Below are positions 51,918-57,398 of a DNA stretch of 64,000 nt, piece after piece (within the stretch, counting starts at the first letter, position 1; every line of letters starts with the position of its first letter). A model generated the notes under the pieces. That model was not told the DNA's origin and searched no databases. It saw only the letters and a list, made by a program, of their open reading frames with translations. The position numbers and the translations under genes were made by a program. The DNA comes from Methanomicrobiaceae archaeon (lineage in GTDB: Archaea > Halobacteriota > Methanomicrobia > Methanomicrobiales > Methanomicrobiaceae), in NCBI GenBank assembly GCA_016926855.1, contig JAFGNT010000018.1, forward strand, positions 213,990-277,989. The letters run 5' to 3'.

Positions 51918-52388
51918 CTACATTCCCTGCAGCCAGCCAATCACTTCCCCGATGTCGGGCACCGAATGAACGGGATAGATCTTCACCCGGGCAACCTTTC
52001 CGTCTTCGCCGATGAGGATATTCGCCCTTTCGGAAAAGCCGTTCGCTGCCCGGAAGATGCCGTACTGCCGGGCAACCTCGCCATGAGGCCAGAAATCACA
52101 CAGGAGCGGGGTCCGGGTGATTCGAAGCGTTTCTGCCCATGCCCGTTTGCAGGGAAGGGAATCAACGCTGATGCCAAAAGCGACGGCATTCGCCGATTCG
52201 AAAGTCTCCCGGTTATCTTCGAGCGATGTCACCTGGGCGGCGCAGTAATCCGTCCATGCAAGGGGGTGAAATGAAAGGAGCACCCGTTTGCCTGCATATT
52301 CATAGAGATCAACGGTTTTATCCCGCTGATCCTTGAGTGAGAAATTCTTTGCCGGATCCCCCGGACGAATGAGCCGTGCCTGTTTCAT
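51918..52388 (-). CDS. Peroxiredoxin (AhpC/TSA-like)
   Basis: PGDPAKNFSLKDQRDKTVDLYEYAGKRVLLSFHPLAWTDYCAAQVTSLEDN. Confidence 0.88.
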   Translation of the reverse strand: MKQARLIRPGDPAKNFSLKDQRDKTVDLYEYAGKRVLLSFHPLAWTDYCAAQVTSLEDNRETFESANAVAFGISVDSLPCKRAWAETLRITRTPLLCDFWPHGEVARQYGIFRAANGFSERANILIGEDGKVARVKIYPVHSVPDIGEVIGWLQGM

Positions 52389-52559
52389 GATATCACCTTT
52401 CTGTTCACTACTCCATGCTTCTATTTCAGTCCTGTGGCAGGGCACTCCGGCATCGCCGGGATCACCGGCGGTGTGGAGGCGGCGGCCGGATCTCACCTTT
52501 CCGGTGACACAAGGATTGAAGAGGCCGGAGGATGATACCTCCGTGATACGAATCCTGTC

Positions 52560-54227
52560 ATGAACCCGATGCCCGCACTCCTTCTCGCTGATGGCGATCA
52601 CCATTCTCTTTCTGCAGTGGAGACGTTTCTGCACTCTCTACGGGAGGTTGCCTCCACCTCTGTCAGTTCAGGACAGGATGCCCTTGATGAGCTCAGAACA
52701 CACCAGTATGACCTGATTATTACAGGATCACAGCTTACGGATATGAACGCCATCCGGTTCCTCGGCCAGATCCGGGATCATGGCATCGAGACACCGGCAC
52801 TGCTTCTGGATGACAGGAAGGATCCTGCCCTGCCGGGAAAGGCCCTGGCCTCCGGTGCACAGTCCGTGGTTACCGTACACAGAGACGGCAAGCACCTGAA
52901 TCAGGATTTTTTCTCCGGATGCCTCGCCCTCATAGAGCGACACCGGACTTTAGAGCGCCTCAGGATAGATAACCGGATCATGCAGGCGGTTATAGCCTCA
53001 TCGCCGATCCCGACGTGTGTGGTGCGAAATCGTCGGATCGTCTGGATCAATGAGATTATGGCCAAAACGCTCGGGTACGACGAGCATGAACTGATTAATG
53101 CGGATCCCCTGATGCTGCTTCCGGAGAGCGGAGAAAATCCGCGTATCGACGAGCTTATCGCGGGAGTCAGTGATGAGACGGGATGGAACACCGCAGCTAC
53201 AGCAATTAAAAAGAAAGACGGCTCGGTGTTCGACGCCCTCCTCCGTTCCCGCTCCATCGACCCGGAACATCCGTCTCTGGGCACGATCGTGACCGGTCAG
53301 GACATCTCCGAATATTCCCGCATGAAGGATCTCTTACGAAAAAGCGAACTGCGCTGTTACGATCTTGTCAACAATGCAAAAAGCATCGTTCTCCGGATTG
53401 ATCCGCACGGGAAGCTCAGGTTCATCAACCGGTTTGGGGAGACATTTTTCGGGTACGCACCGGATGAACTTACCGGTAAGGCAGTTGTAGGAAGCATTCT
53501 TCCCAAAAAATCCCGAAGCGGAAGGGATCTGGATTCGATGCTTTTGCAGGTGATGGAAAATCCCGAGCAGTACGAATTCAATGTCAATGAAAACATGAAA
53601 AAGAGCGGTGAAAGGGTCTGGATAGCATGGAGCAATCACGCAATCCGCGATGAGCATGGCGATCTGGTGGAGATGCTGTCAATCGGCAATGATATTACTG
53701 ACCGGGAAAGTGATCCGGATGATCCTCTCTCAACCGTCGCGTGGATGAGTACTATCATCGAGGATACCGATATCTCCTATGATATCTTCGAGGCGGTATA
53801 TTCAATCGCCGCTGAGATCTCGCGGGACGGGCGTGAAGGCAGGGTGATCGGCACAGCATTCCTGATCGGTGATGCAGATCAGGTGCTCGCCCATTCCGTC
53901 CAGCTGATCCTGAACCCGTTCGAAGGCCATGATCCGGCCACACGGGCCGTTTCACGGTCGGATATCCGCGAAACCATCAAGGAGTTAGCCCAGCTCGACG
54001 GGGCGTTTGTCATCAGGGGCAACGGTCTCGTCGAGGCAGCGGCACGCTATATCTCGGTTGATGCCCATGATATTGCCATCCCGAAAGGATTCGGTACCCG
54101 CCATGCATCCATTGCGGCGATTACGGAAATCACTCGTGCTGTCGGAATTGTTGTTTCACAGAGCGGCGGCAGGATCTCGATTTTCCGCCACGGCAGGATT
54201 GTGCGGATCATTCCCATCGAAAAATGA
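52560..54227 (+). CDS. Pseudo-receiver-PAS-PAS-diadenylate cyclase (DacZ/DisA_N-like) fusion
   Basis: C-terminus GREGRVIGTAFLIGDADQVLAHSVQLILNPFEGHD...ETIKELAQLDGAFVIRGNGLVEAAARYI...IPKGFGTRHASIAAITEITRAVGIVVSQSGGRISIFRHGRIV matches archaeal DacZ layout with DGA and GTRH motifs. Confidence 0.85.
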   Translation: MNPMPALLLADGDHHSLSAVETFLHSLREVASTSVSSGQDALDELRTHQYDLIITGSQLTDMNAIRFLGQIRDHGIETPALLLDDRKDPALPGKALASGAQSVVTVHRDGKHLNQDFFSGCLALIERHRTLERLRIDNRIMQAVIASSPIPTCVVRNRRIVWINEIMAKTLGYDEHELINADPLMLLPESGENPRIDELIAGVSDETGWNTAATAIKKKDGSVFDALLRSRSIDPEHPSLGTIVTGQDISEYSRMKDLLRKSELRCYDLVNNAKSIVLRIDPHGKLRFINRFGETFFGYAPDELTGKAVVGSILPKKSRSGRDLDSMLLQVMENPEQYEFNVNENMKKSGERVWIAWSNHAIRDEHGDLVEMLSIGNDITDRESDPDDPLSTVAWMSTIIEDTDISYDIFEAVYSIAAEISRDGREGRVIGTAFLIGDADQVLAHSVQLILNPFEGHDPATRAVSRSDIRETIKELAQLDGAFVIRGNGLVEAAARYISVDAHDIAIPKGFGTRHASIAAITEITRAVGIVVSQSGGRISIFRHGRIVRIIPIEK

Positions 54228-54299: not shown

Positions 54300-57200
54300 T
54301 CACCCGGTTTCTTTTTCCTGCTCGTCGCAGAGCGGCGTGTAATCACAGAAGCGGCAGGCCGAATACGACGGAGTTGCCGGAAACTCACCCGCACAGATGG
54401 CGCCGATCATCCCGGCGAGCTTGTGCCTAAAAAGCTCAATGCTCTCGTCGTCCGGGAAGTAATCCACACATTTATTGTCATTTAAAAAGAGGAACGAAGC
54501 CCGGCGGGGCAGTTTACCGTACCGGTCCCGGACGGCAAGGCAGTAGAGATTGAGCTGGATGTTCTCTTTCACGGAATTGCGGGTGAGAGAGCCCGGCTTC
54601 GATCCGGTTTTGAAGTCGATGACAACCATATCGCCGTCAGGTGTCCGTTCGATACGATCGATATAGCCCTTCATGGTGCGGCCTTCACAGGCAAACAGGA
54701 ATTTTTCCTCGATGCCTGCAAGGGAATTGCCGTTCATGAGGTGCCAGCCAAGAAAAGTATCAAGGAGAATTTCCGCCTTTGCGCGGTCTTCCGCCTCGTG
54801 CTTCCGGGACTGGTAGCCTTTCGGTGACCAGAACCGATCGAGCATCTCACGGGCACGCTCCCGGGTGGGTGCGATCCCTTTCATCTCATCAGCGGAGAGT
54901 TTTTCGATGACCGTGTGCACGACCGATCCCAGTCCGAAGTAGGACTTCGGCTCTGTGGGGATGAACAGCACGTGCCTGAACCTGTACTGCAGGGGGCAGG
55001 TCTCGTAGGTCTGCAGGGCCGATGCGGAGAAACCGTGGTCCGGGCCGATCCCGCACGCATTCCCTCCTGCAGGGGGAGGAGTGAACGGTGCCTCCGGGAC
55101 GGAAAGGAACACGTTCCTGTCAAATGCAGAAATATCCTCCCCTTCTTCCAGCAGCCGTATCTTTTCAAGGTCCATCATCCGTTGCAGGGCGGTGCCGAGC
55201 CGCATGTCGACAACAGCCCGGATGGCCTGGGTCTGCAGGGCATGTTTTGCGACTTCCAGTTCATTTTTTGCCCGAAGGGGGATTTCCTGCGTCTCTGCCG
55301 GCACGTCGATGACCGTGATGAGCGGGTTCTGTGTATACTCCAGTTCCTCTAAAAAGACCGAGGGTTTGGATTCGCGCTTGTTGTCACCGTATATCTTTGC
55401 CCGGGTGAAATAGAGACGCTCCTCTGCACGGGTCATGCCCACATAGCAGAGCCGGCGCTCTTCCTGCAGGTGGAGGGTTTTCTCGTCCACCTCCGAAACC
55501 AGCCCGCGGGTGAGATCCCGGGGGACAAAGAACGGCTTTTCCTGGTACCGGAGGGGAAATTTCCGTTCCGAAAGATCCGCCAGAAAGACGACGGGAAATT
55601 CCTTGCCCTTGCTCTTATGCAGGGTCAGGATCTGCACCGCATCGGTATCGGCTGGTTCGGACACATCCACGTCCATATCAGAGAGCAACGATAGGTACTC
55701 CAGAAAGTCATCCACACTGGCATCCTTCGTAATCGACTCGTAATCCCCGGAAAGTGTATAGAACCTGTTGAGCACCTGCCGGTGCCTGCCGTCGTCGTCA
55801 CCGAGCGCTTCCCGGTACAGGGCACCCGTCCGCATCATCACCTCGTAGACGAGCCCTGAGAGCGTTTCCCTGTCCTTTTTTTCGATGAGCCGACCGACAG
55901 ACTGAGCAAGCTCCCGGACAACGGGCTGGTATTCCGGAGCCACCTCGTCTGCTGTCTGCATGGCCTCAAAGACGCCGTCGGAATGACCGACACCCCACGC
56001 CGCCTCCCGGGCAGTGGCATTGATGGTCTGTACGACTGCCTCCGGAACACCGCCCGCCTTCATGATCCTGTTTAAGGAGATGCCGGCTGCAAGGGGATTT
56101 GTAACAGCCCTGAGCCATGCCATCATATCCCGCACCTCAGGCATGGAGAAGAAGGCAATCTCACCGGAAAATTCACAGGGGATGCCGTGGCTCTTCAGCA
56201 ACTGAGAGAACTTCACCCCTTCGGCACGCCGCCTGCAGAGAATGGCGAAATCGCGATACCGGAACTGCCGCTTGTGCCCCTCCTCCCGGTCAAATACTTC
56301 CGTTTCCAGAAGGCGCCGGATCTCCTGAAGGACATAATGAGCCTCGGCATCTTCATTCTCGCACTCGGCGACGATGATCGTCTCGCCCACAGGATTCGCG
56401 GTTGCGAGCGCTTTTTCCTCCCGTCCGGGAACATGCGCCATCAGCTGCAATGCGGCCGCCAGGATGGTTCCGGAATTCCTGTAATTCTCATCGAGGAGCG
56501 TCTCGCAGTGATCCGGATAGGACTGGCTGAAATCGTCGAAATTCCCGAAATACGCGCCGCGAAAGCGGTATATTGTCTGGTCGTCGTCCCCCACCACACA
56601 GAGCTGATCGCCTGCGAGCTGTTTGATGAGGGCAAGCTGGGCGTAGTTTGTGTCCTGAAACTCATCGACGAGAATATAGCGGTACCGGTGTTTATAGAGA
56701 GCAAGAATGTGCGGTTTTCGCGTAAAGAGATGTACCGTTTCGTGGATCATATCATCGAAGTCAAGGAGCATCGCCGATCGTTTGAAACGCTCATATGCCT
56801 CGTATACACGCAGGAGATCGCGGAGCCTGCCAAAAAAGAGGCGTTCTTCCCTGTCACAATCCTCATCTCTGCGGCATTCCTTTTCGCGAAGATAGGCACC
56901 CAGCTCCGCGGGCGTGATCAGCTCATCCCGGAGGCGGGATATCCCGTCGATAACCGACTCGATAATCCGGGGTGCATTGTTACCCACCTCGATGTTCTCA
57001 AACCCGAATGTGTCGATGTTTTGCAGGCCCCAGACCAGCTGGTTCGTCCTGTTGATAATGCCGGAGGAGAAGCTGATCCCGGAATCGAGCACGTTGTCCT
57101 CAAGCACCTGACGGCAGAAGGAGTGGAACGTATGGACGGCAATCTCACTGCCCCCCGTTCCGAGCGATTTTTCGAGACGCTCCGCCATTTCCCGGGCGGC

Positions 57201-57398
57201 CTTGTTGGAGAAGGTAAGAGCCAGAATTTCTTCCGGGGCTGCACCCTGTTCGATGAGGTGGACGATCTTTTCCGTGATAACCCGTGTCTTGCCCGATCCC
57301 GGTCCGGCAAGAATGCACTGGATGCCCGTGGTGGTGACCGCTTCCTGCTGTCTGGAATTGAGCTGCATAACGACTCCCGGCTGGCTTTGAGTACTCAT
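54300..57398 (-). CDS. SF1 UvrD-like helicase fused to C-terminal PD-(D/E)XK nuclease (AddB/Cas4-like Fe-S type)
   Basis: LAGPGSGKTRVITEKI; VVGDDDQTIYRFRGA; VQILTLHKSKGKEFPVVFL; MVVIDFKTG; C-terminal CRFCDYTPLC with upstream ETCPLQYRF. Confidence 0.9.
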   Translation of the reverse strand: MSTQSQPGVVMQLNSRQQEAVTTTGIQCILAGPGSGKTRVITEKIVHLIEQGAAPEEILALTFSNKAAREMAERLEKSLGTGGSEIAVHTFHSFCRQVLEDNVLDSGISFSSGIINRTNQLVWGLQNIDTFGFENIEVGNNAPRIIESVIDGISRLRDELITPAELGAYLREKECRRDEDCDREERLFFGRLRDLLRVYEAYERFKRSAMLLDFDDMIHETVHLFTRKPHILALYKHRYRYILVDEFQDTNYAQLALIKQLAGDQLCVVGDDDQTIYRFRGAYFGNFDDFSQSYPDHCETLLDENYRNSGTILAAALQLMAHVPGREEKALATANPVGETIIVAECENEDAEAHYVLQEIRRLLETEVFDREEGHKRQFRYRDFAILCRRRAEGVKFSQLLKSHGIPCEFSGEIAFFSMPEVRDMMAWLRAVTNPLAAGISLNRIMKAGGVPEAVVQTINATAREAAWGVGHSDGVFEAMQTADEVAPEYQPVVRELAQSVGRLIEKKDRETLSGLVYEVMMRTGALYREALGDDDGRHRQVLNRFYTLSGDYESITKDASVDDFLEYLSLLSDMDVDVSEPADTDAVQILTLHKSKGKEFPVVFLADLSERKFPLRYQEKPFFVPRDLTRGLVSEVDEKTLHLQEERRLCYVGMTRAEERLYFTRAKIYGDNKRESKPSVFLEELEYTQNPLITVIDVPAETQEIPLRAKNELEVAKHALQTQAIRAVVDMRLGTALQRMMDLEKIRLLEEGEDISAFDRNVFLSVPEAPFTPPPAGGNACGIGPDHGFSASALQTYETCPLQYRFRHVLFIPTEPKSYFGLGSVVHTVIEKLSADEMKGIAPTRERAREMLDRFWSPKGYQSRKHEAEDRAKAEILLDTFLGWHLMNGNSLAGIEEKFLFACEGRTMKGYIDRIERTPDGDMVVIDFKTGSKPGSLTRNSVKENIQLNLYCLAVRDRYGKLPRRASFLFLNDNKCVDYFPDDESIELFRHKLAGMIGAICAGEFPATPSYSACRFCDYTPLCDEQEKETG

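Follow-up and report, generated by a model that had tools for sequence, protein, structure and literature searches.

The diadenylate cyclase gene and its neighbours

The window (the whole stretch of 64,000 nucleotides analysed, from a Methanomicrobiaceae archaeon) carries a gene for a pseudo-receiver-PAS-PAS-diadenylate cyclase (pseudoREC-PAS-PAS-DAC) on its plus strand at 52560..54227. The gene is identified from a 555 aa open reading frame, running from an ATG at 52560 to a stop codon ending at 54227, from Pfam matches and from collinear homologues. The encoded domains are arranged in the order receiver-like, PAS, PAS and C-terminal DAC, and all three domain types are matched above their Pfam cut-offs, in agreement with the first-pass annotation of this DNA. 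A collinear homologue with 82% identity is found in a second species of the same genus, so the domain pattern of the window protein is not a product of chance, and further collinear homologues are found in families f2, f4 and f6.

Divergent from the DAC gene is a gene for an AhpC/TSA peroxiredoxin (51918..52391, -; PF00578, 105 bits), the longest open reading frame of which extends to 52634, with a probable start near 52391. On the other side lies a convergent gene for a UvrD-type helicase with a PD-(D/E)XK nuclease domain, assigned with Pfam (54300..57398, -), and this gene adjoins the fused DAC gene in the sister species too. Clustering of neighbours across loci found no operon partner that is conserved with the fused DAC, and synteny is seen at the genus level only. 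In G154, L055:804-1754 (+) encodes a protein predicted to lie in the membrane, in which one sequence resembles a potassium channel filter; in genus g32, three loci have such a channel-filter-like gene close to that of the pseudoREC-PAS-PAS-DAC.

The DAC domain and its active site

The DAC domain covers residues 423-546 (53826..54197, +), where PF02457 matches with 63 bits (E 2.5e-17, cut-off 27), and is preceded by a helix from about residue 407. A structure model of the DAC domain by itself, built with three sequences (mean pLDDT 73.7), matches the solved CdaA, CdaM, DacA and DisA structures in Foldseek (E ~3e-6, probability 1.00). The full-length model has a pLDDT of 44, and is too poor for domain packing or dimer geometry to be read from it.

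Catalytic and receiver columns were scored in an alignment of 57 pseudoREC-PAS-PAS-DACs. In the DGA motif (residues 480-482; 53997..54005, +), D and G are found in 57/57 homologues and A in 56/57, and in the GTRH motif (residues 512-515; 54093..54104, +) G512, R514 and H515 are invariant (57/57). Full invariance is also seen for T432, F434, S446, N452, D480, G481, G510, S533 and S535. The earlier reading of the C-terminus as a DAC with intact DGA and GTRH motifs is therefore borne out: the window protein has the PF02457 match above cut-off, DGA, GxRH and the conserved Ser533. Two features that are typical of DACs, although not strictly defining, are absent. The third residue of the RHR motif is Ala in the window protein and Ala, Ser or Asn in most class members; the list of active-site residues for the Listeria CdaA, LmCdaA (PMC7288161), does not include this position. 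Additionally, (V/I)SEE is replaced by SQS (residues 533-535; 54156..54164, +), at a site where other DACs carry SEE or SES.

SQS is found in nearly all of the pseudoREC-PAS, PKD and TrkH fusions, and SES in DacZ and most TPR fusions. In the SEE motif of LmCdaA, the first Glu touches ATP via its main chain only, and the second Glu coordinates metal (PMC7288161), so the rate, metal use or product of SQS enzymes may differ. SES proteins are also without the second Glu, and thus SQS alone does not predict a loss of activity. The motif raises a real doubt about the predicted activity of the window DAC.

Relation to DacZ and phylogeny of the fused DACs

Two DACs are encoded in the genome of the window organism. 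The other (L002, 268 aa), in which DAC is joined to DacZ_A, is a genuine stand-alone DacZ; the window DAC is 49% identical to it over 138 residues. DacZ_A (PF21754, about 270 aa) is present in L002 and absent from the window protein, and the NCBIfam DacZ model NF041371 matches the window protein over residues 407-548 only, scoring 102 bits where the cut-off is 430. In a careful tree of 90 DAC domains, stand-alone DacZ is separated from 47 fused Methanomicrobiales DACs with strong support (100/98), and the window DAC falls in the fused clade, outside the DacZ clade. The domain had been labelled DacZ-like, which calls for correction: the DAC domain is homologous, but the protein is not DacZ, a label that is rejected by its N-terminal domain, the NF041371 cut-off and the tree, with a separate DacZ in the same genome. 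Judged by domain content and tree position, the window DAC is a DacZ paralogue rather than DacZ itself, in a clade that is specific to Methanomicrobiales.

The organism's own dacZ (L135:4421-5227 (-), G000:C17) has a 4-base overlap with a sucD-like gene, in an apparent string of 2-oxoacid oxidoreductase genes, sucC, sucD and dacZ. In 8 loci from different families, dacZ is accompanied by a sucD-like gene.

N-terminal partners within the fused clade are pseudoREC-PAS-PAS, TPR and PKD, with TrkH in family f2. Little of the deeper branching order within the clade is resolved by the tree; in a quick tree, the window protein groups with f2 and f4 members with modest support (84). The tree gives no support to the idea that the fusion came from bacteria, as the Nitrospirae sequence L034 groups, on long branches, with short DACs of family f10, outside the fused clade. 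These f10 proteins (L140-L143, L145, L148, L150 and L154) are ~190-215 aa long, with almost nothing N-terminal of the DAC. Two other members of the fused clade, L050:2516-3313 (-) in G195 and L081:2634-3968 (-) in G011, group together (100/98), and their N-terminal parts (~130 and ~300 residues, respectively) have no Pfam family match.

TPR-DAC fusions (L040, L038 and L015) and PKD-DAC fusions (L043, L072, L073 and L090) are found in the same DAC clade, the TPR repeats and PKD domains lying behind hydrophobic N-termini of membrane-anchored or exported appearance. A TrkH potassium transporter with a C-terminal DAC is encoded at L131:3193-5256 (+) of G001:C6, with further cases in L083 (G007), L133 (G009) and L116 (G008). 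These fusions are 687-741 aa long and come from two genera of f2, a family related to that of the window organism; one copy lies on a 568-kb contig of a genome that is 98% complete. The four DAC domains form one clade (support 97), and that of L131 has DGV in place of DGA. No report of a TrkH-DAC fusion was found in the open-access literature, several likely sources lying outside its reach. The fusion, a side finding here, is more novel than the architecture of the window protein.

Distribution and replacement of DacZ

DAC genes are near-universal in the phylum sample (366/397 genomes); unlike in nearly all others, none is found in near-complete genomes of family f21 (G268, G282, G290, G310 and others). 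The architecture of the window protein was sought elsewhere in the order Methanomicrobiales and is widespread there, including in families f2, f4 and f6. In the window's own family, f1, DacZ is present in 28/28 genomes, and a fused DAC is found besides it only in the two genomes of the window's genus. Most genomes of family f2 carry both DacZ and a fused DAC.

Family f6, which we take to include Methanoregula boonei, Methanospirillum hungatei and Methanosphaerula palustris, has a DAC in 59/59 near-complete genomes. DacZ_A is found above cut-off among f6 genomes only in G196, with two weak matches in genus g38, and two g38 DACs group with DacZ in the tree. Exactly one DAC is present in 29 of the 59 near-complete genomes, and for 26 of these 29 it is a full-length pseudoREC-PAS-PAS-DAC. 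Of the other three sole DACs, one is fused to TPR, one is a PAS-DAC whose frame is shortened, and one is cut off where its contig ends. L175, on G180:C5, is the only DAC of its genome and has a PAS part in a frame of only 286 aa; the gene has perhaps been split or shortened, or the assembly may be wrong there.

Since DacZ is an essential protein of Haloferax volcanii (PMC6741144), its loss in f6 suggests that the fused enzyme works. By the gene content of these genomes, the fused enzyme most likely took over c-di-AMP synthesis in f6; this sole-DAC status, although indirect, is the best evidence for activity of the class. In the window organism, where DacZ is also present, the fused protein could be dispensable or inactive. 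The usual c-di-AMP partner families are present in its genome, where six open frames carry TrkA_C and three carry DHHA1.

The main alternative to an active synthase is that the DAC domain, with its SQS motif, no longer synthesises c-di-AMP and instead binds ATP or c-di-AMP, the protein acting to sense nucleotides or to regulate DacZ. This would fit with the change from Glu to Gln in nearly all pseudoREC-PAS members, and with the true DacZ of the window organism. However, a class member serves as the sole DAC in the 26 near-complete genomes, the DGA, GTRH and Ser columns are all invariant, the Glu replaced by Gln is one that in LmCdaA contacts ATP by its main chain only (PMC7288161), and the second Glu is missing from DacZ as well. 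An inactive DAC domain thus seems unlikely.

The pseudo-receiver and PAS domains

The receiver-like domain covers residues 8-105 (52581..52874, +) and matches Response_reg with 38.3 bits (cut-off 30.2). The position of the phosphoacceptor Asp, as placed in the alignment of homologues, is Gly56 in the window protein (52725..52727, +). In the 57 aligned sequences this column holds Tyr in 36, Cys in 5, Phe, His and Gly in 3 each, Arg and Pro in 2 each, Glu and Leu in 1 each, and a gap in 1; the acceptor Asp is found in 0/57. At the start of the domain, one acidic residue or both are often retained, but the other phosphorylation-site residues are not, and no counterpart of the conserved Lys can be made out near the domain's end in the alignment. 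The window protein thus has the receiver fold of a response regulator without its phosphoacceptor, as the term pseudo-receiver had implied. From these residues, the receiver is predicted not to be phosphorylatable, and this is a property of the whole class, not of the window protein alone.

PF00989 matches two stretches of the window protein (69 bits, cut-off 22.6), confirming that two PAS domains are present. PAS domain 1 (about residues 137-255, with limits taken from the family alignment; 52968..53324, +) is the second Pfam PAS stretch, and PAS domain 2 lies at residues 269-383 (53364..53708, +; PF00989 69 bits, PF08448 55.6 bits). In the class alignment PAS 2 is the better conserved of the two, and PAS 1 is poorly conserved.

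A constitutive DAC, with the pseudo-receiver-PAS-PAS part serving only to hold the enzyme at its place within the cell or within a complex of proteins, would be in keeping with the dead receiver and with the free exchange of N-terminal partners in the clade (PAS, TPR, PKD and TrkH), which fits scaffolding. PAS pairs adjoining a dimeric enzyme are, however, usually regulatory, and PAS domains are retained in more than 50 homologues, with PAS 2 well conserved; mere positioning is accordingly rated as quite improbable. Sensor-style control, as first proposed for this protein, is supported as its likeliest function on the basis of domain make-up. Two-component control, in which a histidine kinase would phosphorylate the receiver and phosphorylation would switch the DAC, can appeal to the Response_reg match above cut-off and to how common REC-PAS proteins are in archaea (main text of PMC5847659), but is rejected as very improbable and close to excluded, since the acceptor Asp occurs in no homologue (Tyr in most, Gly in the window) and the Lys expected toward the domain's end cannot be recognised.

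Proposed mechanism

The window protein is probably a soluble, dimeric, one-component c-di-AMP synthase that is gated by cytosolic PAS signals and not by phosphorylation. The C-terminal DAC domains of two protomers would face each other and convert two ATP into c-di-AMP, with the pseudo-receiver-PAS-PAS part setting the geometry of the DAC dimer. A cytosolic cue (redox, ligand or energy), bound by one or both PAS domains, would switch DAC activity, and the receiver-like domain would act as a dimerisation or docking module rather than a phosphorylation switch. The window organism would thereby have, in addition to its stand-alone DacZ, a regulated route of c-di-AMP input.

More broadly, it is tentatively proposed, at somewhat less than even confidence, that Methanomicrobiales have, apart from DacZ, another lineage of c-di-AMP synthases, one that is prone to fusion, and that in one family the pseudoREC-PAS-PAS form replaced DacZ, placing the whole c-di-AMP pool under cytosolic PAS control without phosphorylation, with an SQS-altered motif near the metal site. 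The PAS-fused DAC addresses the question of which signals govern archaeal c-di-AMP synthesis, and as the fusion puts input and output in one soluble protein, the question is directly testable. The genomes without DacZ offer a natural setting in which to test whether fused enzymes are active and whether they are essential.

Comparison with known systems

The DAC domain of the window protein is homologous to that of DacZ/CdaZ (Haloferax volcanii HVO_1660; Methanocaldococcus jannaschii), and DGA/DGV and GxRH are shared. However, DacZ carries a DacZ_A (or PK_C-like) N-terminal domain and SES, where the window protein has pseudoREC-PAS-PAS and SQS. Bacterial CdaA/DacA, CdaM and DisA share the DAC fold and the main catalytic motifs with the window protein, but differ in their regulatory parts, with transmembrane helices in CdaA and CdaM and a DNA-binding domain in DisA. 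In vivo data on archaeal DACs were found in the open-access literature for the DacZ type only, and no functional study of a DacX-type or pseudoREC-PAS-PAS-DAC protein was found there, several likely sources lying outside its reach.

The N-terminal domain order is shared with archaeal REC-PAS proteins and REC-PAS histidine kinases, which are common in Methanomicrobia according to the main text of the 2018 archaeal two-component census (Galperin et al. 2018, PMC5847659). The window protein differs from these in its DAC output, which is not named in that main text, and in its apparently non-phosphorylatable receiver. That a dead receiver is retained across the class is also of relevance to the REC-PAS proteins of methanogens, many of which are unexplained.

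The genome G157 (2,542,943 bases), which we take to be that of Methanoregula boonei, encodes a Response_reg-PAS-PAS-DAC as its sole DAC. This protein is collinear with the window protein from end to end (559 aligned positions, 36% identity), and SQS is shared. Archaeal DACs were divided into DacV to DacZ by their attached domains by Corrigan & Grundling 2013, as related by Braun et al. 2019 (PMC6741144), where M. palustris represents DacV, M. hungatei DacW and M. boonei (A7I8S2) DacX. In so far as that account goes, the domain order of the putative DacX representative matches that of the window protein, and as the two align end to end, the class of the window protein is already catalogued. The suggestion that direct sensory control of c-di-AMP synthesis would be a new input architecture is therefore not upheld: fused archaeal DACs were classed as DacV, DacW and DacX in 2013 (via PMC6741144), and the architecture is widespread in the order. 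By its sequence, the window protein is a real, well-conserved and uncharacterised member of this class. What appears to be new is that the receiver is dead throughout the class, that SQS is its signature and that DacZ has probably been replaced in f6. The window protein differs from the G157 DAC in having Gly rather than Tyr at the acceptor site and is placed by the quick tree closer to members from f2 and f4, and, unlike G157, the window genome also retains DacZ.
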